NCBI RefSeq assembly: GCF_006439025.1
Contig: NZ_RCYZ01000001.1
Location: 372,001-436,000, forward strand
Source: Hymenobacter nivis
GTDB taxonomy: Bacteria; Bacteroidota; Bacteroidia; Cytophagales; Hymenobacteraceae
DNA: 64,000 bases
Direction of reading: 5' to 3'
The translations under genes and the position numbers were made by a program. The notes under the pieces were generated by a model. It saw only the letters and a list, made by a program, of their open reading frames with translations. It searched no databases and was not told the DNA's origin. Below, in pieces: positions 2,294-61,172 of the stretch; positions within the stretch are counted from its first letter, which is position 1, and every line of letters begins with the position of its first letter.

Positions 2294-3256
2294 CTACTTC
2301 ACCGGGGGCAGGAAGCAGTACTTGCGGTACACGGCCTGCCCGGCGGGGCTGGTGAGAAAAGCCACAAAGTCCTCGGCGGCCTGGGCGTGGGGAGCGGCTT
2401 TCATCACCCCGGCCACGTAGTTGGCCGTGATGTTTTCCTTGGCCGGAATCTCAATATTTTCCACCGGGTGGCCCAGCATTTTCTGGTAAAACGCCTCCGT
2501 GTACCACACCGGGGCGGCGTCGGACTGGTTATACAGCACCCGCATGGGCGACTGCCGGTGGTGAATTTGGGTTAGGAACGTGCTACCGGCCTGCACTTTA
2601 CTCGTCATCACGGCGGTGCGCAGCGCCGCGCCACCGGCCTTCTCGTACGCTTCCTCGATGCGCTTGCCAATGCCTTCCCAGGCGGGGTTGGGCATGCTCA
2701 CCCGCACCTCGGGCCGGCCCAGGTCGCGCAGGCCCTGCACCTTTTTGGGGTTGCCCTGGCGCACCAGTATGGCCAGCCGGTTTTGGGCATAGCTGCTGGT
2801 GTGGGCAAACCACTCGGGCGTCATATCCATCCGGCTTTTGCCAGCCGCGTACACGTCGGGCTTCAGGGCGATGCGCAAGTTGCCCACCACCAGGGCCCCA
2901 CCCTGTGCAATCTGCTTGGCCAGGATGCCGGGGGGCAGGGTTTCGACGAAAATGCGCTGGTATTGGGGATGGGCCTTGCGGAATTCGCGCAGCAAATCAT
3001 CGAGCACCATGAACTGATTGCCGCCAAAAAACACCACCAGCTGCGGGTCTACCACGTCGCCGTAGAGGTCGGGCACGTTGTCGATGCCGGGCACCGTGAA
3101 GGCCTCACCGGTCTGAAACGGCGCATTCCAGGGCGGGTCGAAGCGGTGGGCCGGCTCGGGCGGGGCGGGCTTCTGGGCGGGCATGGCTTGGGCGAGAGCA
3201 GCGGCTGGAACCAGCGCCAGCGCGGCCAGGGCAAGCAGGTGAGAAAAGCGTTTCAT
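2294..3256 (-). CDS. Periplasmic substrate-binding protein, molybdate/tungstate (ModA/PBP2) type
   Basis: This 320-residue secreted protein has a signal peptide ending near AALAQA (residue 23). The mature part has the PBP type 2 layout. QLVVFFGGNQFMVLDDLLREF lies near residue 73, a NRLAILVRQGNPKKV hinge region near residue 158, and VPN-like SMPNPAWEGIGKRIEEAY near residue 185. The C-terminal segment AEDFVAFLTSPAGQAVYRKY is characteristic of ModA-like extracellular solute-binding proteins. No permease or ATPase gene is adjacent, so it may be an orphan binding protein. It is last in a minus-strand run after a diheme cytochrome and a DsrE-like protein, which hints at an inorganic sulfur or metal oxyanion ligand (inference). 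Confidence 0.75.
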   Translation of the reverse strand: MKRFSHLLALAALALVPAAALAQAMPAQKPAPPEPAHRFDPPWNAPFQTGEAFTVPGIDNVPDLYGDVVDPQLVVFFGGNQFMVLDDLLREFRKAHPQYQRIFVETLPPGILAKQIAQGGALVVGNLRIALKPDVYAAGKSRMDMTPEWFAHTSSYAQNRLAILVRQGNPKKVQGLRDLGRPEVRVSMPNPAWEGIGKRIEEAYEKAGGAALRTAVMTSKVQAGSTFLTQIHHRQSPMRVLYNQSDAAPVWYTEAFYQKMLGHPVENIEIPAKENITANYVAGVMKAAPHAQAAEDFVAFLTSPAGQAVYRKYCFLPPVK

Positions 3257-3272
3257 GGGTAACCAATTCTTT

Positions 3273-3355
3273 GGCTGTCAGCTATTAGCTGTTAGCTTTT
3301 CCGTTAACTAATAAGTAGTTGCGGTAACTATTACTCAACTCAAAAGCTAACAGCG
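3273..3355. repeat. Inverted heptamer-repeat element A (AGCTRTT family)
   Basis: The left arm at 3273-3300 is four 7-bp units (GGCTGTC, AGCTATT, AGCTGTT, AGCTTTT). The right arm at 3342-3355 holds two units in inverse orientation (AAAAGCT, AACAGCG). The last two left units pair with the right arm over 13 bp. The element fills the spacer between the minus-strand genes 3365-3844 and 2294-3256, and its right arm lies 9 nt after the upstream stop codon. It shares its unit with the elements at 28515-28608 and 37912-37998. Confidence 0.7.
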
Positions 3356-3364
3356 CAGTACTCC

Positions 3365-3844
3365 CTACGGGTGCACCAGGGCCCAGCCCTGGGCCTGCCG
3401 GATTATCAACTCCCCGTTGCCGCTGGGCACGTAGGAGATGATGGGCAACAGCTCATCCTTGCTTATCTTCCTCTCCCTGATTGTGTTGAGGCACTGCGCC
3501 AGGATAACGCCCTTCTGCTTAAGGGCCGTGAGTTGCGCCTCGTAGGGCTGGTCTTTGCGAAAAACGGCCGTGCCGTTGGCAAAAGCCACCAGCTCGATGG
3601 TAATCTTGCCCTTTAGACGCGTGTCTTCCAGCGCGTTGCTGAGGTTGCGCAGCGTCTGCTGAATCAGCTTGGGGTCGTCGCTATCGAGCTGGTACACGGC
3701 GTTGTAGTGGGCAAGGTCGGCGGTGGCCCCCTGGAAGGTGCCCTTCTGGAAAGCTTCGGCGTCGGACATGGCAGCGGAGGTTTGGGCGTGGCTGGAAAAG
3801 GCGAAGCCAGCGGCGAGCGCGGCGGTCAGGAGCAAGGTTTTCAT
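3365..3844 (-). CDS. Secreted DsrE/DsrF-like (YchN-fold) protein
   Basis: The 159-residue product has a signal peptide (MKTLLLTAALAAGFAFSSHAQ). The mature domain carries features of the DsrE/DsrF superfamily: AHYNAVYQLDSDDPKLIQQTLRNLSNAL, KITIELVAFANGTAVF, then LKQKGVILAQCLNTIRERKI with a single conserved-type Cys, and a C-terminal basic strand ending in GWALVHP. Family members bind or relay sulfur in oxidation pathways, and a periplasmic version next to a thiosulfate dehydrogenase-like cytochrome fits that theme. It lies 39 nt downstream of the cytochrome gene on the same strand, so co-transcription is likely. Persulfide transfer is inferred, not shown. Confidence 0.8.
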   Translation of the reverse strand: MKTLLLTAALAAGFAFSSHAQTSAAMSDAEAFQKGTFQGATADLAHYNAVYQLDSDDPKLIQQTLRNLSNALEDTRLKGKITIELVAFANGTAVFRKDQPYEAQLTALKQKGVILAQCLNTIRERKISKDELLPIISYVPSGNGELIIRQAQGWALVHP

Positions 3845-9279: not shown

Positions 9280-9786
9280 ATGCCCACCAACCTGCCCCTC
9301 ACGCCCGCCGACTTACCCCACCTGCGCCACTGCCTGGCCCTGGCCACCGAGGCCCTGCACGCCGGCGACGAGCCCTTTGGCTCCCTGCTGGTGGGCCCCG
9401 ATGGCACGGTGCTGGCCCAGGCCCGCAACCGCGTCAACGAACTCAACCACCTGGCCCACCCCGAACTGGAGCTGGCGCAGTGGGCCGCTGCCCACCTCGC
9501 GCCCGAGGCCCGCGCCGGCGCTACCCTCTACACCAGCGGCGAGCACTGCCCCATGTGCGCCACCGCCCACGGCTGGGTGGGCCTGGGCAAAATCGTGTAC
9601 CTCGCCTCGGCCCAGCAGCTTACGCAGTGGCTGCTGGAGCTGGGCGCACCAGCCGGGCCCGTGCGCATGCTGCCAGTGCAGGAGCTCATTACCGATGCCC
9701 AGGTGGCCGGGCCGGCCGAGGGCGAGCTGCTGGCTGCCATCCGGGCGTTGCACGTGGCCTACCACACGCAGCGGCCGGCGGCGTAG
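9280..9786 (+). CDS. Nucleoside/nucleobase deaminase (CDA superfamily)
   Basis: A 168-residue zinc-dependent deaminase. DEPFGSLLVGPDGTVLAQARN is the substrate-binding strand, AHPELELAQWA provides the HPE catalytic pair (a variant of HAE) near residue 61, and SGEHCPMCATAHGW supplies the two zinc Cys near residues 90-93. Guanine and tRNA-adenosine type deaminases share this layout; Pro in place of Ala in HAE is seen in guanine deaminase-like members. It lies 38 nt after the amidohydrolase and probably works with it on a nitrogenous ring compound. Exact substrate unknown. Confidence 0.85.
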   Translation: MPTNLPLTPADLPHLRHCLALATEALHAGDEPFGSLLVGPDGTVLAQARNRVNELNHLAHPELELAQWAAAHLAPEARAGATLYTSGEHCPMCATAHGWVGLGKIVYLASAQQLTQWLLELGAPAGPVRMLPVQELITDAQVAGPAEGELLAAIRALHVAYHTQRPAA

Positions 9787-9813
9787 CAGCTCCTAATAGC
9801 TTTTAGCAAAAGC
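9787..9813. repeat. Degenerate AGCT-type heptamer tract after a stop codon
   Basis: Directly after the TAG at 9784-9786 there is a short tract of imperfect 7-bp units (AGCTCCT, AATAGCT, TTTAGCA). The units resemble the AGCTRTT repeats seen as full elements elsewhere in the window. Only one arm is visible. Confidence 0.35.
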
Positions 9814-22662: not shown

Positions 22663-22683
22663 GAAAGCTATCAGCTAAAAGCT
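22663..22683 (-). repeat. Single-arm AGCT heptamer tract after a stop codon
   Basis: Read on the minus strand, three 7-bp units (AGCTTTT, AGCTGAT, AGCTTTC) follow the stop of the T9SS protein gene by 6 nt. They match the unit of the inverted elements at 3273, 28515 and 37912, but no opposite arm is present. A terminator follows. Confidence 0.5.
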
Positions 22684-22689
22684 CAGCAA

Positions 22690-25560
22690 TTACCGCACAA
22701 TCTGCACCCAGCCTTTGTAGGTGATTTTTGTGTTGGCGGCGTCGGCAAATTCGACTTCAGCCAGGTAGTAGTACAGGCCGTCCGATACCTTGCCGCTGCT
22801 GCCGCTTTCGCCCACAGCCCCGCCGCCGTCCCAGTTGATGAAGATGCGCGACGTGGTGGTGCTCTCAAAAACCTTCGCCCCCCAGCGGTTGAACGCCTTG
22901 AAGTGCACGCTCCGCAGCGGGCTGGCCGACTTGGGCTGGAAGATTTCGTTCACCCCGTCGCCGTTGGGCGTGAAGATGTTGGGCAGGATGAAGAACGGGC
23001 AATTGTTCTGGCACACCACGTTGCTGAGGGCGCTGCGCAAGCCGCCCGTGCTCACGGCCTGCACGGCGTAGCAGCCGCCCAGCTCGGGTAGGTTGCGGTG
23101 CACGTAGCTCATGGTATTGGTGGAGTCGAGCAGTGCCAGGGCCCCATCGACCGTGGGCCGGTAGAACACACGGTAGTAGGCAATGGGTGCACTACAGCCG
23201 GTGGGCACGGCGCTGGCGGTCCAGCGCAGGGAATTAGCGTAGGTCTGGTTGTCGCTGGGCGGGTTGCGGGCCAGGCTGTCGCAGTTCACTAAGGCCAGCG
23301 ACAGCACCGGCACGCAGGGCTGGTCGGTCAGCGTGGTGCAGATGATCTGGCTCTTGTTGAGCAGCTCGCTGAGGTAGCCGGTGGGGTTGTACTGGCCATT
23401 GGTCTGCACGTAGTAGCAGTAGGTGTTGCCCTTCACGAGGGCGGGATCTTTGTCCACGAAGGTGCCACCGGCGGTGGTCGACGTCACCGACCCTACTTGC
23501 GCGAAAGGGCCCCCGGCCGTGCCGCTGCGGAATACCAGGGTGGGCTTTTTGGTGTTGTCCCACGGCGTCTGGTAGGTCCAGTTCACGGTGATTTGCTTGT
23601 TGGGGCTGTCGGGCACCAGCGCGGTGCGCACGCTGCTGGCCGTGCCAGCGGGCTCCACAATCTCGGTGGTGCTGCCCGCAGCCGAGGCGTAGAACAGGTC
23701 GAGCTTGTAGGTGTACTGGTTGGCCGCGGTGTTGACGTTGGTATCCACAAACACCGAATCGGTGAGCGAAAACGGCGTGGCGCGTACCACGGTGTAGGCC
23801 GTGGCGGCCGGCGACAGGCCCACGGCCCGCGAGAGGCGGTAGCCCGAGGGCGTGTTCAGCAGCTGCGTGGTGGCCAGCTTGGCCGGCGACCACCGCACCG
23901 TAATCTGGCCCGTGGCGCTGGTCTGGTCCACGTCTACGTTCTTGAGGCGCGCCGACGAGCCGCCCACAGTGGCGCAGGCTTCGGCCGAGGCAATGCTGGC
24001 CCCAAGCGCGGGTAACGGGAAATCGGCGTAGATGCGGTAGCAATACGTCTTGCCCCGGTCGAGGCCCCGGCCCGCGTTGTCGTCCTTAAAGGCCGACAAA
24101 TCAGCCGTTACCGAGCCCACCAGCGTGTAGCCCGCACTCGCCGGAATACCCGTGTCGCAGGGCCCCGGCACGAAGTTCGACGAGTTCTCCTTGCGGTAAA
24201 TGCGGATGAAGCTGGCGTTGGAACAGATGTAGCGGTCCCAGGTCAGGGTCACTTGGTTGCCGGCGGGCACGGCGCGCAGGTTTTGGGGCGGGGGCCCCAC
24301 CACAGTGATGCGCCACACCTGCTCGTCCACCAGCGGGAAATCGGGGCTGGGCGGGCTGTCCTGGGCTCGGAAGACGACCGAGTAGGGCTCCTTGGCCACG
24401 TTGCTGCAATCGGTGGCCCAGGTGAAGCGGCCAGTGGCCGTGGGGGGCCCCTTGGCGCTTTGCGTGAACACGGCCGGCGGCAAAATGCCCGAGTAGGCAT
24501 TCAGGGTAACGGGGGTTGGCGCGGCGCTGCCCGCGGCACTGCCGTCGGTGGCCGTCACGGTGCCGGTCACAGTAGTGCCGGCTATCACGCACAGGTCGGG
24601 CGGAATCGTGAGGATGGGCCGCAGGTTGTTGGTGGGTATTACGATAATCTGTATGTCTTGTATTACCGTTCCAATCTGTTGCGCAGGAAATCCATCTATC
24701 CTCCGCCATTCCTGCACTTCAAAAGCTACGTTGTAAAAACCGGTTTGCAACGGCGCATTCCACGTAATTTGGCCAGTGCGTGAGTCCTGCTGGAAAATGG
24801 CCGCCCCCGATCCGTTGGATGCAGGTACCCCGTTGTAAGGCACTTGCCTGGCGTTGGCGTTGCCCGGCGTTTTGTCGGGATACACAAAGCCGGCGATGAC
24901 GGCCGGCACCGGCCTATTGTTGGTAGGCGTCGACGGGGCTTGCTGCGAAGGGCGCAGCTTGAACACCATCGAATCGCCGTCAGCATCATAGGCCCCGGGA
25001 TTGTGCAAATACACTTGGTTTTGGCCAGCCTTGTCTACGGCCGGCGTGCGCAGTATGGGGCTGCGGTTGAGGCCCAGCGCCGGATCGATGGTGAGGGCGG
25101 TGCTGACGTAGAAGGACTGCGTATTAGACTGTGTGCCAATAAAGTTTAAGATGCCCTGGTTGCGGTTTTCGCCAATAAAACTCGCAGTAAACTTACCCGC
25201 CGCTGGGTAGGTATGGTCGAAGTAAAAGACATCGAGGCCGGTATCGGGGCTGCCAGCAATCGGAATCACCTGTTTATTACCAGTACCAGATACGCGGTTT
25301 ACCGTCTGCGAAGTACCGTCGCCGAAGTACAAAGTGGCCGTTGGCTGGTCGGCGCTGGCCGGCGACAAATCCTGGTAGATGATCAGCTTGAAGAAGATCC
25401 GGTTGGGGTTGTGGGCAGCCGTGGTATCCACCTTGGCCTCGATGTTGCCAGCGCGGATGTGGGAGGCGCGTGCCGTGCCCGGCAGCAGGGCCCCCAGCAC
25501 CAACAACAACCCAAAGGTGGCCAACTGCCAATTGTACCAAATTGCGGAAAGTGCCTTCAT
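22690..25560 (-). CDS. Large secreted multi-domain protein with T9SS type B sorting domain
   Basis: The 956-residue protein has a signal peptide (WQLATFGLLLVLGALLPGTARA). The N-terminal part starts SHIRAGNIEAKVDTT, a common start for Bacteroidota adhesin-like proteins. It contains several Ig/PKD- and fibronectin III-like beta domains (for example PPQNLRAVPAGNQVTLTWD near residue 440). The C-terminal 90 residues are the gliding-motility C-terminal (CHU_C/type B) sorting domain: FFILPNIFTPNGDGVNEIF, then FKAFNRWGAKVFES and GLYYYLAEVEF. This directs export by the type IX system and attachment to the surface. The ATG at 25560 opens the signal peptide; the frame continues upstream but without coding character. 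Confidence 0.88.
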   Translation of the reverse strand: MKALSAIWYNWQLATFGLLLVLGALLPGTARASHIRAGNIEAKVDTTAAHNPNRIFFKLIIYQDLSPASADQPTATLYFGDGTSQTVNRVSGTGNKQVIPIAGSPDTGLDVFYFDHTYPAAGKFTASFIGENRNQGILNFIGTQSNTQSFYVSTALTIDPALGLNRSPILRTPAVDKAGQNQVYLHNPGAYDADGDSMVFKLRPSQQAPSTPTNNRPVPAVIAGFVYPDKTPGNANARQVPYNGVPASNGSGAAIFQQDSRTGQITWNAPLQTGFYNVAFEVQEWRRIDGFPAQQIGTVIQDIQIIVIPTNNLRPILTIPPDLCVIAGTTVTGTVTATDGSAAGSAAPTPVTLNAYSGILPPAVFTQSAKGPPTATGRFTWATDCSNVAKEPYSVVFRAQDSPPSPDFPLVDEQVWRITVVGPPPQNLRAVPAGNQVTLTWDRYICSNASFIRIYRKENSSNFVPGPCDTGIPASAGYTLVGSVTADLSAFKDDNAGRGLDRGKTYCYRIYADFPLPALGASIASAEACATVGGSSARLKNVDVDQTSATGQITVRWSPAKLATTQLLNTPSGYRLSRAVGLSPAATAYTVVRATPFSLTDSVFVDTNVNTAANQYTYKLDLFYASAAGSTTEIVEPAGTASSVRTALVPDSPNKQITVNWTYQTPWDNTKKPTLVFRSGTAGGPFAQVGSVTSTTAGGTFVDKDPALVKGNTYCYYVQTNGQYNPTGYLSELLNKSQIICTTLTDQPCVPVLSLALVNCDSLARNPPSDNQTYANSLRWTASAVPTGCSAPIAYYRVFYRPTVDGALALLDSTNTMSYVHRNLPELGGCYAVQAVSTGGLRSALSNVVCQNNCPFFILPNIFTPNGDGVNEIFQPKSASPLRSVHFKAFNRWGAKVFESTTTSRIFINWDGGGAVGESGSSGKVSDGLYYYLAEVEFADAANTKITYKGWVQIVR

Positions 25561-26573: not shown

Positions 26574-28508
<1,935 letters not shown>

Positions 28509-28514
28509 TTTTTC

Positions 28515-28608
28515 AGCTGTTAGCCATTAGCTGTTAGCTGTTAGCTCTGTGCCAATAGTTTAATAGCTCTGATGAAAACTAACAGCTAATAGCCAACAGC
28601 TAACAGCT
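28515..28608. repeat. Inverted heptamer-repeat element B (AGCTRTT family), sdhA-sdhB spacer
   Basis: The left arm at 28515-28549 has five 7-bp units (AGCTGTT, AGCCATT, AGCTGTT, AGCTGTT, AGCTCTG). The right arm at 28581-28608 has four inverted units (AACAGCT, AATAGCC, AACAGCT, AACAGCT). The arms pair in more than one register. The element fills the 109-nt spacer inside the sdh operon, so the transcript would carry a stable stem-loop between two co-translated subunits. Confidence 0.8.
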
Positions 28609-28617
28609 AGAGAGAAA

Positions 28618-29403
28618 ATGGCCGGTTCCAACCCCAACGCTAAACCGATGAACCTGACCCTGAACGTATGGCGGCAGCCCAGCCCCAAAGCGCAGGGAAA
28701 GATTGTGGAGTACCAAGTGAAAGACATTTCGCCTGAAATGTCCTTCCTGGAGATGCTCGACGTGCTGAACGAAGACCTGCTACACAAGGGCGAAGACCCG
28801 GTGGCTTTCGACCACGACTGCCGTGAGGGCATCTGCGGCTCGTGCGACTTGTTCATCAACGGCCGTTCGCACGGCCCGGAGAAGGGCACTACTACGTGCC
28901 AACTCCACATGCGCAAGTTTTCGGACGGCGACACCATTACCATAGAGCCCTGGCGCGCCAACTCCTTCCCAATCAACAAAGACCTAAGCGTGGACCGCTC
29001 GGCCTTTGACCGCATCATCCAGGCGGGCGGCTACGTGAGCGTGAACACCGGCGGGGCCCCCGACGGTAACGAGATTCCTATTCCGAAGGACATTGCCGAC
29101 CGGGCGTTTGAAGCGGCTACCTGCATCGGCTGCGGCGCGTGCGTGGCGGCATGCAAGAACGCATCGGCCATGCTGTTTGTGTCGGCCAAGGTATCGCAAC
29201 TGGCCCTGCTTCCCCAGGGCGACGTGGAGCGCAAAACCCGTGTCGAGAACATGGTGGCGCAGATGGACATCGAAGGTTTTGGGGCATGCACTAACATTGG
29301 CTCATGCGCTGCCGAATGCCCGGTGGGCATCTCGCTCGAGAACATCGCCATCCTGAACCGCGAGTTCTTGACTGCCAAGGCTACGTCAAATAATTTGGCA
29401 TAA
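28618..29403 (+). CDS. sdhB: Succinate dehydrogenase iron-sulfur subunit
   Basis: The 261-residue protein has the [2Fe-2S] ferredoxin domain ([17 protein letters not shown] near residue 64, then a later Cys in TTTCQLH). The C-terminal domain carries two further clusters in [18 protein letters not shown] near residue 169 and [15 protein letters not shown] near residue 222. It relays electrons from the flavoprotein to the membrane anchor. It ends 21 nt before a strong terminator, closing the sdhCAB operon. Confidence 0.96.
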
Positions 29404-32898: not shown

Positions 32899-32905
32899 AT
32901 GAATT

Positions 32906-33014
32906 CATTTAACATTTAGCAATTAACATTTAACATTTTCGCTCGCAGCCCCCAATTGGGGCCCCCGAAATAAAAATGTCAGTTGTTAAATGATAAATGA
33001 TAATTGTTAAATGA
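32906..33014. repeat. Inverted heptamer-repeat element D (CATTTAA/TAAATGA), ftsA-ftsZ spacer
   Basis: The left arm at 32906-32940 has five 7-bp units (CATTTAA, CATTTAG, CAATTAA, CATTTAA, CATTTTC). The right arm at 32980-33014 has five units in inverse orientation (CAGTTGT, TAAATGA, TAAATGA, TAATTGT, TAAATGA). A GC-rich palindrome (CCCCAATTGGGG) sits between them. The right arm ends one base from the ftsA stop. The unit is unlike AGCTRTT elements, but period and architecture are the same. Confidence 0.8.
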
Positions 33015-37911: not shown

Positions 37912-37998
37912 AGCTGTTGGCTATCAGCTATTGGCTGATAGCTGCTTGTGCAATGATAATTAAAAAAGCGAACAGCTACCGGCTAATAGCTAACCGCT
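37912..37998. repeat. Inverted heptamer-repeat element C (AGCTRTT family), overlaps ftsW 3' end
   Basis: The left arm at 37912-37946 has five 7-bp units (AGCTGTT, GGCTATC, AGCTATT, GGCTGAT, AGCTGCT). The right arm at 37971-37998 has four inverted units (AACAGCT, ACCGGCT, AATAGCT, AACCGCT). The ftsW stop (37983-37985) and its last four residues (AVSY) are encoded inside the right arm. The left arm ends 6 nt from the murG ATG. Confidence 0.8.
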
Positions 37999-49954: not shown

Positions 49955-50048
49955 GGTTTTTCGAAAGAGACGGCCGCTGGTGCAGCGGCCACGGGCAGGG
50001 CTATTTAGCCCGGCCCTTCTTTTCGCAACGCCTTAACTAACAGCTATT

Positions 50049-52394
50049 ATGAAACTATTGCGCGGGCTTAGCCCGCTGCTGACCAGCGGCTTGCTGCTGG
50101 CGCTTGGGGCCCCTACCCCGGCCCGGGCGCAGGCCGTGCCCGGCCCGGTGCGGGGCGAAATCACGGAAAAAACCACGGCCGCGCCCCTGCCCGGCGCGCT
50201 GCTGCGCTGGCTGGCCGACGCCCCCGCCGCGGCCGACAACTTCCCCACCGCCACGGCCGATGCGGCCGGCCACTTTGTGCTGGCCCGCCCGGCTCGCGCC
50301 GCCGGCCGCCTGGTGGTGCAGGCCCTCGGCTACCGGCCCGATACGGTGGCCGTGCCCGCCGCCGGCAGCCCCTACCTGCGGGTGGGCCTGCGCCCCGGCC
50401 TGGAGCTGGGCGAGGTGACGGTGACCACACGGGCCCCCGCCTACTCGGCCATCACGCCCACCAACACGCAGGTAATCTCGGCCCGCGACCTCACCAAATC
50501 GGCCTGCTGCAACCTGGCCGAGAGCTTCGAAACCAACGCCGCCGTGGAGGTCACCACCTCCGACGCCGTATCCGGGGCCAAGCAGATTCAGCTGCTGGGG
50601 CTCGATGGGGCCTACTCGCTGCTGACCGTGGACAACCAGCCGGCCCTGCGCGGACTGGCCACGCCCTACCGCCTGGGCTACCTGGCGGGGCCCTGGATCG
50701 AGAACATCGAAATCATCAAGGGCACGGGCTCGGTGGTGAACGGCTACGAAGCCATTTCGGGCCAGATCAACATTAAGCTCAAGGAGCCCGAAAAAACCGA
50801 CCAGCTGCTGTTCAACGCCTACACCAACGACCTGGGCAAGTTCGACGTCAACCTCAACACCTCGGCCCGCCTCAACCCGAAGTGGAGCACCGTGCTATTG
50901 CTGCACACCGACCACCTGGGCCGGCGCGTGGACCGCAACAGCGACGGTTTTATGGACCTGCCGCTGGCCACGCAGTTCAACGCCGTGAACAAGTGGAAGT
51001 ACATTTCCGGCCACGGCTTCGTGACGGAAGTAGGCCTAGGGGCCCTGCACGAAGACCGGCAGGGCGGCCAGCTGGGCTTCCGGCCCGACGCGCCCGACGC
51101 CTACCGCCAAGCCTACGGCACCACCAACACCACCCGCCGCTACACGGCCTTCACCAAAACGTCGTACACCTGGCCCACCCGCCCGTTCCAAAGCCTGGGC
51201 TTGCTGATGAACGGCACGAGCCACGATTTTAACTCGACGTACTCGTTCAGCGACGTGACGGGGCCCCGGCACTACGACGGCACCCAGCGCACGGGCCAAG
51301 CCACGCTGCTGTTCCAAAGCATCATCGGGAGCACCACGCACGGCTACCGGGCGGGGCTGAGCTTTTTGTACGACGACTACCGCGAGTTTCTGGGCACCGG
51401 CCAGGCCATTGGCACCGAGACCCTGGCCGATGCCTACACCCGCGAGCACCGCACCCGCCGCGAGCTGGTGCCCGGGGCCTTCGCCGAGTACACGTACCAA
51501 AACAGCCGCAACCTGACCGTAGTGGCCGGCCTGCGTGCCGACCGTCACAACCTATACGGCTGGCAGGTGACGCCCCGCTTCAACCTGAAGTACGACGCCA
51601 CCCAAAACTCCATCTTCCGGCTCTCGGCGGGCCGCGGCTGGCGCGTGGCCAACCCCATCGCCGACAACGCCTACCTGCTGGCCAGCGCCCGCAGCTTCGT
51701 CATCGGCAACGCCCTGCGCCCCGAAACGGCCTGGAACATGGGCGGCAGCTTCACGCAGTATTTTGAGTTGTGGGGCCGCCAGGCCACGTTCGTGGCCGAC
51801 TACTACAACACCACGTTTGGCAACCAGGTGGTGGCCGATATGTACACCGCGCCCCAGCTCGTGCTCATCAACAACTTGGGCCCCGGCAGCCGCTCCTTCG
51901 CCCGCAGCGTGCAGGCCGAGCTGCAAGTGGAGCCCGTGAAGGGCTTGCAGGTGAAGGGCGCCTACAAGTACCTCGACGTGCGCACCACCTACGGCGACGA
52001 GCTATTGCCCAAGCCCCTCACCCCCAGCCACCGCGCCTTCCTGAACCTGGGCTACGCCTCGGCATTCGATAAGTGGCGGGCCGATTTCACGGTGCAGTGG
52101 TTCGGCCAGCGGCCCTTGGCCCACCTCGGCAACGACGCCACCCACCAGCACGCCCCCGGCCAAAGCACGGCCGTGTACTACGCCCCGCGCTACGCCGCGC
52201 TCAATACCCAAATCACCCGCGCCTTCAAGCGGCTGGAGGTGTACGCGGGCGTCGAAAATCTTACCAACTACCGCCAGCCCAATCCCATCGAAAGTGCTGC
52301 CTTCCCGTTCAGCCCCAACTTCGACGCCGCCATGGTGTGGGGCCCCGTGTACGGCCGCCTCACCTACGTTGGCCTCCGCTACCGGATCGAGTAA
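50049..52394 (+). CDS. TonB-dependent outer membrane receptor, metal (copper)-linked type
   Basis: The 781-residue protein has a signal peptide ending near PARAQA. A carboxypeptidase-regulatory-like domain follows (GEITEKTTAAPLPGALLRW to about residue 110). The plug domain contains SACCNLAESFETNAAVEV and IENIEIIKGTGSVVNGYEAISGQINIKLK near residues 150-240, and a 22-stranded barrel ends in GRLTYVGLRYRIE. The CCNLAESFETN plug is typical of receptors encoded beside HYC_CC_PP and HMA genes. It would import a chelated metal or small ligand. Two short hairpins occur in the 94-nt leader. Confidence 0.92.
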   Translation: MKLLRGLSPLLTSGLLLALGAPTPARAQAVPGPVRGEITEKTTAAPLPGALLRWLADAPAAADNFPTATADAAGHFVLARPARAAGRLVVQALGYRPDTVAVPAAGSPYLRVGLRPGLELGEVTVTTRAPAYSAITPTNTQVISARDLTKSACCNLAESFETNAAVEVTTSDAVSGAKQIQLLGLDGAYSLLTVDNQPALRGLATPYRLGYLAGPWIENIEIIKGTGSVVNGYEAISGQINIKLKEPEKTDQLLFNAYTNDLGKFDVNLNTSARLNPKWSTVLLLHTDHLGRRVDRNSDGFMDLPLATQFNAVNKWKYISGHGFVTEVGLGALHEDRQGGQLGFRPDAPDAYRQAYGTTNTTRRYTAFTKTSYTWPTRPFQSLGLLMNGTSHDFNSTYSFSDVTGPRHYDGTQRTGQATLLFQSIIGSTTHGYRAGLSFLYDDYREFLGTGQAIGTETLADAYTREHRTRRELVPGAFAEYTYQNSRNLTVVAGLRADRHNLYGWQVTPRFNLKYDATQNSIFRLSAGRGWRVANPIADNAYLLASARSFVIGNALRPETAWNMGGSFTQYFELWGRQATFVADYYNTTFGNQVVADMYTAPQLVLINNLGPGSRSFARSVQAELQVEPVKGLQVKGAYKYLDVRTTYGDELLPKPLTPSHRAFLNLGYASAFDKWRADFTVQWFGQRPLAHLGNDATHQHAPGQSTAVYYAPRYAALNTQITRAFKRLEVYAGVENLTNYRQPNPIESAAFPFSPNFDAAMVWGPVYGRLTYVGLRYRIE

Positions 52395-61082: not shown

Positions 61083-61091
61083 GTTTTCAAT

Positions 61092-61172
61092 GAGTGAATG
61101 GGTAAGTGAGCGAATGAGCGAATGGGTAGCCGTTGCCAGCATTCATTCGCTCGTTTACTCATTCACCCATTC
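61092..61172. repeat. Inverted octamer-repeat element E, crtI-crtB spacer
   Basis: The left arm at 61092-61131 has five 8-bp units (GAGTGAAT, GGGTAAGT, GAGCGAAT, GAGCGAAT, GGGTAGCC). The right arm at 61141-61172 has four inverted units (ATTCATTC, GCTCGTTT, ACTCATTC, ACCCATTC). The crtI stop (61163-61165) lies inside the right arm, and the last residues of crtI are encoded by it. Same architecture as the heptamer elements, but period 8. Confidence 0.8.

Follow-up and report, generated by a model that had tools for sequence, protein, structure and literature searches.

The spacer between sdhA and sdhB in the 64-kb stretch of Hymenobacter nivis DNA analyzed here (the window) is filled by an element made of two facing arms of tandem heptamers, which begins 6 bp past the sdhA stop codon and stops 9 bp short of sdhB. 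This element, its neighboring genes and the related features found in the window were as follows:

26574 to 28508, plus strand: sdhA
28515 to 28608, plus strand: sdhA-sdhB spacer element; left arm AGCTGTT AGCCATT AGCTGTT AGCTGTT AG (28515 to 28544), 34-nt loop, right arm 28579 to 28608
28618 to 29403, plus strand: sdhB
3273 to 3355, minus strand: AGCTRTT element with a long loop and one short arm
32905 to 33014, minus strand: ftsA-ftsZ spacer element with ATTTAAC-type heptamer arms and a 48-nt loop
37912 to 37998, minus strand: ftsW-murG spacer element with imperfect AGCTRTT arms
61089 to 61171, minus strand: octamer element with GTGAATGA-type arms and a 25-nt loop, overlapping the stop of the upstream ORF (61163)
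22663 to 22684, minus strand: single degenerate AGCTRTT arm, soon after the stop at 22690
9788 to 9808, plus strand: single degenerate arm, weak, directly after the stop at 9786

The elements at 3273 to 3355, 28515 to 28608, and 37912 to 37998 had been described in an earlier interpretation of the same letters (the sequence-only reading) as inverted arms of AGCTRTT heptamers, and direct reading bore this out. All three lie between co-directional genes. The first and the last have the same units as the sdhA-sdhB element, with less perfect arms; the neighbors of the first are a DsrE-like gene (3365 to 3844) and a solute-binding protein gene (2294 to 3256), and in the last, the left arm (in gene sense) encodes the final FtsW residues together with the ftsW stop codon (37983 to 37985). 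The single-arm or degenerate copies proposed after the stops at 9786 and 22690 were also present, in a weaker form with 2 to 3 mismatches in 14. MurG identity to named Hymenobacter was 78 to 85%. With at most 2 mismatches allowed, two-unit matches numbered 19 in the window; three first-order Markov sequences matched to it in length gave 1, 0, and 0.

An ungapped scan for inverted arms that was blind to the unit (score of at least 15, loops no longer than about 80) returned 8 sites in the window and none in any of three Markov controls. Five of these sites were short-loop hairpins (loops of 3 to 10, terminator-like or GC-rich), and the remaining three were the sdhA-sdhB element, the ATTTAAC element at 32905 to 33014 and the octamer element at 61089 to 61171. 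The last two, which the sequence-only reading had not named, share the build and differ in their units, so AGCTRTT is one class of a broader kind. At this first threshold the scan misses the imperfect copies at 3273 and 37912; a lower threshold recovered part of the former (3288 to 3354) and still missed the latter. In the spacer before the ORF at 50049 (49966 to 50048), terminator-like stems occur along with an isolated AACTAACAGCTATT remnant ending at the start codon. No Rfam family matched the window above its gathering score.

Across the window's own genome (5.44 Mb), AGCTRTTAGCTRTTAGCT at up to 3 mismatches gave 82 forward and 70 reverse matches, i.e., 152 overlapping matches, which is not a number of elements, compared to 0 and 1 for the reversed-pattern control. 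The AGCTRTT family put forward by the sequence-only reading is therefore real, but it is merely one of many unit classes, and at some sites the class changes while the hairpin is kept. Among 120 genomes of the genus, exact AGCTRTTAGCTRTT was present in 101 (0 to 185 matches per genome), AATTATGAATTATG in 65 and GAGTTATGAGTTAT in 30. Perfect (AATTATG)n arrays were seen at contig ends in one genome (G106:C9:7-76, C28:2-85, and C3:66145-66263), and such arrays therefore probably break short-read assemblies and are undercounted.

Placement relative to genes was surveyed in 70 sources (1.45 Mb), comprising the window, 40 stretches around sdhA-sdhB from relatives, 20 own-genome stretches (8 picked without regard to matches), and 9 named Hymenobacter loci; some sources share a genome, and genes without public annotation were called with a simple purpose-made caller. 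Long-loop hairpins numbered 127 per 564 co-directional, 25 per 115 convergent, and 5 per 116 divergent spacers of at least 60 bp, while short-loop terminator-like hairpins numbered 72 in convergent, 48 in co-directional, and 2 in divergent positions; these counts include many orthologous sites and are based on the simple gene caller. The window and the 8 unselected stretches (224 kb) together held 11 long-loop intergenic hairpins of all kinds. Among long-loop hairpins, the arms were periodic in 53 co-directional cases out of 127, in 3 convergent cases out of 25, and in none of the 5 divergent cases. The period of the 53 periodic co-directional elements was 7 in 46 cases and 8 in 7, and pooled arm identity was highest at lags 7 (0.384) and 14 (0.396), every other lag between 2 and 15 giving 0.23 to 0.30. 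Their arms had a G+C content of 36%, the window one of 63%. The median distance was 5 bp to the stop and 9 bp to the start codon. At the sites tested, the tracts are non-random relative to stops, as expected from the claim that the copies abut stop codons.

To follow the sdhA-sdhB junction across species, we extracted 51 spacers, representing 47 distinct Hymenobacter genomes, 3 Pontibacter genomes, and 1 duplicate row (H. sp. CCM 8763, with spacer and flanks as in G079); the set consisted of the 30 best-matching of the 120 genus genomes, extended by further ones to 47 of the 120. Facing arms were present in 30 of the 30 best-matching genomes, with spacers of 93 to 126 bp. Among the 47 Hymenobacter genomes, spacer length varied from 93 to 130 bp, and 46 spacers folded with z < -2 relative to shuffles. 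The median fold z for all 51 was -6.3, with the weakest values for G082 (-1.2), whose spacer has no clear hairpin, and one Pontibacter (-1.5). No empty site was seen among the spacers examined.

The arms themselves belonged to different classes: A (AGCTGTT) in 13 of the 51 spacers, C (AATTA-type) in 12, B (AGCTTGC) in 7, REP-like in 7, D (GAGTTAT) in 5, two smaller classes of 2 each, and 3 others, with labels assigned by regular expression and class C lumping AATTATG, AATTAAT, and two poor fits (G093 and G082). Unit class at this junction has little memory of descent. On a tree of the flanking coding sequences it required at least 28 changes in 50 rows, compared to 31.7 ± 1.7 for shuffled labels, and two genomes with 94% identical flanks (G039 and G103) carry different classes. 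Judged by eye, class A loops were alike in distant species and class B loops likewise, which suggests that a class moves as a complete element. Where the junction held class A or D, the genome was richer in that unit overall (P = 2e-4 and 6e-5, for species that are not independent), and no link with genome-wide abundance was observed for class C (P = 0.32). Same-class pairs were slightly more alike beside the spacer than further off (1.5% versus 0.2%, P = 0.002), a small effect among pairs that are not independent. It was also noted that in five genomes (G048, G103, G056, G067, and G008) the spacer is taken by a GC-richer palindromic family of the TGTCATSCTGAGCG type, with the recurring loop GTTACTAACCCAACG or a close variant.

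Six junctions of one region were then compared, with spacers of <40 bp set to z = 0 (no hairpin). A hairpin (z < -2) was kept at sdhA-sdhB in 40 of 41 cases, at ftsA-ftsZ in 23/26, at ftsW-murG in 11/25, at ftsQ-ftsA in 6/26, at murD-ftsW in 5/23, and at murC-ftsQ in 4/26; retention at sdhA-sdhB and ftsW-murG differed with P = 7e-7 (Fisher test). The ftsW-murG spacer measured 77 bp in the own genome (G000), 109 bp in G011, 217 bp in G048, and 18 bp in both G077 and G018, the last value being read from the DNA, as the G018 row of the comparison is unreliable (a wrong 326-bp spacer, with the ftsW frame broken in the draft). The ftsA-ftsZ element of the window was near-identical in G018, H. negativus, and G048. 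G011, the nearest genome by DNA identity, has a different ftsA-ftsZ element, common to G077, and on the flanking-gene tree it falls just outside the group of G000, G018, G077, and G048. Orthologous sdhA-sdhB and ftsW-murG spacers were thus not conserved as ordinary sequence at the sites tested, in line with the sequence-only reading. Retention of the hairpin while all letters are replaced speaks most strongly for a function at sdhA-sdhB and ftsA-ftsZ; alternatively, these may be hot or old sites.

Whole elements could be traced in the clade of G058, where a terminator-bearing form is found as a polar interspersed repeat of about 165 bp, with degenerate units and TTCGTTC followed by the terminator AAGGCCCCGCACTC..GAGTGCGGGGCCTT and then by a perfect array. 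When the element was searched together with its flanking genes (L294), ten genomes of this clade gave 28 to 55 matches each; most of the matches listed were limited to the 165-bp element, and several were near full length at 80 to 91%. No array-free genome was found among the ten for this locus. Just upstream of the sequence to the left of the convergent L294 (query 1 to 904), a second copy with 89% identity represents a tandem gene duplication (L344, G058:C17:33069-33975). Arms adjoined the AAGGCCCCGCACTC..GAGTGCGGGGCCTT terminator at 6 of the 6 extracted loci holding it, in a locus set for part of which gene context was missing, and the single armless convergent terminator seen in a 20-kb stretch of G058 has a different sequence. 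By eye, the AGCTRTT loops of the own genome look unrelated except for TTCGTT and A-rich edges. The idea that arms alone are shared between copies was overturned by the homologous interiors in the G058 clade alignment.

Presence and absence were evident at a convergent site in ten genomes with flanks 86 to 95% identical (L286). Here, two genomes (G053 and G004) lack arms and have just a plain terminator. An A-type element occupies the site in G058, G079, G114, and G035, the G035 copy carrying a REP-like insert, while A-type remnants persist in G065, and G001 and G003 have a B-type element with another terminator. At the same site in G087 (L356), AGCTTGC-type (B) outer arms surround an AGCTGTT-type (A) terminator interior and an A array, a chimera that points to recombination or nesting between classes. 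Long perfect arrays were mostly confined to one arm, as slippage would give. No transposase or target duplication was identified, the latter having been looked for in the flanks read; the element ends are inverted. In sum, the elements are dispersed and modular, and orthologous sites can have or lack them.

Could these be hairpins of a familiar kind? Transcription terminators or attenuators would fit the six convergent loci at which G058 arms bracket a real terminator-like stem. However, the features of an intrinsic terminator, a short-loop GC-rich stem followed by a T-run, were absent from the AT-rich arms and from the sdhA-sdhB spacers read, which have long loops and no T-run after the stem (short loops being set aside by definition in this test). 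Moreover, the sdhA and sdhB products belong to one complex, and the short-loop terminator-like hairpins of the same DNA are mostly convergent, and we regard this explanation as very improbable. REPs, in turn, are fixed short palindromes. Like the elements studied here, REPs and REPINs are dispersed intergenic palindromes often near stop codons, according to the available part of one account (PMC12306157), and the genus does have candidate movers, with Y1 transposases (IS200-like and RAYT-like, PF01797) in 83 of 120 genomes and two weak RAYT-like Y1 matches in the own genome. The arms here are, however, tandem arrays, and among 20 RAYT-like loci, chosen by judgement from match length and score, 17 had other palindromes and 3 had none detected by the scan, while a period-7 array was found at 0 of 20 by a test that does detect the elements at 28515 and 32905. 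An origin as REPINs moved by the genome's RAYT transposases was therefore rejected for the loci scanned, and we give it almost no credence. The two own-genome RAYT-like Y1 genes (L205, G000:C21:84101-84346, and L206, G000:C12:781363-781536) each have two long palindromes of their own kind (GTAGGGTGCGGGGCTTGCCCCC and CTGTACCGCCAAGCTGTGCTTGGC types). Integron attC sites were considered for the stop-adjacent palindromes as well; unit classes such as AATTATG presumably lack the attC core motif. The claim of an element family distinct from terminators and from the RAYT-linked palindromes examined accordingly held.

Tandem units close to start codons would also suit recognition by a regulator that binds RNA or DNA, the role put forward for TAACTGA repeats, but several unit classes coexist per genome and replace each other at one site, which a sequence-specific reader would hardly tolerate; such a role seems very unlikely, if a shade less so than termination. 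In 24 of 49 cases, arms read from the upstream gene had a stop in each of the three frames, compared to 10.6 ± 2.5 for dinucleotide shuffles. We treated a three-frame translation stop as a by-product and not as the purpose, because outward reading also gives such stops (19/49) and because a period not divisible by three does so for any stop-holding unit. A stronger challenge is that the elements are selfish or neutral repeats only, i.e., slippage products or a non-autonomous mobile element, persisting because they do no harm between stop and start, with sdhA-sdhB an old or hot site. This would be consistent with the dispersal, with the presence or absence at orthologous sites and with the rarity of long-loop hairpins in divergent spacers. 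It is also consistent with the base pairs themselves: sense-strand G-U mismatches were not in excess of A-C mismatches (41 versus 51), giving no sign of selection on the RNA strand, and the mRNA-shaping role suggested by the sequence-only reading found no support in this test. Against it stands the near-complete retention of the sdhA-sdhB hairpin through complete sequence replacement, compared to fewer than half of the cases at ftsW-murG, and we consider it rather unlikely that selfish or neutral spread is the whole story.

Taken as a whole, the observations are probably best explained by dispersed spacer elements that are exchanged by recombination and kept at some operon joints for a useful hairpin. 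Each element has two arms of tandem units, 7 bp or at times 8 bp long, that face each other across an interior of about 10 to 100 bp or more; in convergent spacers this interior may include an intrinsic terminator. Whole elements would be copied within a genome, their arms would lengthen or shorten by slippage, and recombination would move copies from locus to locus and from species to species, the element at a fixed junction thereby giving way to one with other units. We infer this combination of copying, recombination, and slippage to be the most likely route. It is a more tentative suggestion that the hairpin at sdhA-sdhB and ftsA-ftsZ is kept for its effect on the transcript; there, selection would retain a hairpin of any sequence, the transcript most likely needing a stable stem-loop or an insulating spacer between cistrons. 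The sdhA-sdhB spacers of 47 Hymenobacter genomes form a natural hairpin-replacement series between well-conserved genes, and thus a ready-made experiment on structure versus sequence and on the exchange route. Since spacing and folding can be conserved without conservation of sequence, alignment-based searches miss such elements.

No paper on REPINs or on intergenic, inverted or tandem repeats in Hymenobacter was found in the open PMC literature, and among the titles listed, searches there for the unit words gave none about bacterial repeats. Cyanobacterial heptamer hairpins, on the other hand, have been noted for decades. The sequence-only reading had held the element to be unexplained by terminators, promoters or known REP sequences; this stands for terminators and for the RAYT-linked palindromes examined, but the kind is known from cyanobacteria, so the literature accounts for it better than that reading implied. 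In the part available of one report, short tandemly repeated repetitive (STRR) sequences typically repeat a 7-bp unit and are able to form a hairpin, e.g., between hupS and hupL, where transcript stability or translational coupling was suggested (PMC2670836). For Nostoc PCC 7120, the words ttgtcagttgtcag and ttgttagttgttag are listed, in the section available, as forming no hairpin by themselves (PMC2408588); both also form arms in the own genome of the window (L272 and L284). As far as these sources go, the likeness extends to tandem 7-bp units, intergenic position, many copies per genome, and a hairpin between neighbors (PMC2670836, PMC2408588), all of which were found for the Hymenobacter elements, with the hairpins lying between genes that are co-transcribed in the STRR case and are known here, from gene order, to be co-directional.

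Replacement of one class by another also has a precedent. In the P6b stem of the Nostoc trnL intron, built of the heptanucleotide motifs TDNGATT or NNTGAGT, one class was repeatedly replaced by the other, according to the available portion of that study (PMC4476775). As in Hymenobacter, a whole stem is swapped for another class while structure is kept, and the class D unit TATGAGT even fits NNTGAGT. The trnL case, as described there, concerns one intron site and two classes, whereas the Hymenobacter elements occupy intercistronic sites genome-wide, and sdhA-sdhB alone has six named heptamer classes plus three unclassified spacers. The TAACTGA direct repeats described for Beggiatoaceae, for Cyanobacteria, and for five Bacteroidetes (PMC4679880) are similarly intergenic tandem heptamers, patchy over the same phyla, with shorter repeat-free spacers in some close relatives. 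Unlike the elements here, most of them are direct repeats, and those of Beggiatoaceae precede start codons; inverted arms and class replacement are not among the features described in the accessible text (PMC4679880).

Outside the genus, plasmid pPg_01 of the cyanobacterium Pseudanabaena galeata carries, between co-directional genes, an AGCTGTT-type arm that lies 18 bp away from a start codon and faces an AGCTTTT-type arm. BLAST matched the sdhA-sdhB element to 17 places on this plasmid (L330/L332), and the one read has the same build. In a sample of the phylum, AGCTRTTAGCTRTT was present in 38 of 296 genomes, patchily, with expansions in G409 (44), G130 (45), and G135 (22). It is a bolder and unlikely proposition that at least two phyla share heptamer words together with a spacer-exchange process that swaps whole hairpin cassettes at fixed junctions, which would make operon spacers interchangeable parts under structure-only selection. 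The Hymenobacter elements are a Bacteroidota counterpart of the cyanobacterial STRR kind, since the build and even the words match. They differ from STRR sequences, as the available text presents these, in belonging to Bacteroidota, in their many unit classes and in being replaced at orthologous junctions in dozens of species; what is new here is thus the other phylum, the many more unit classes, and the replacement at orthologous junctions.
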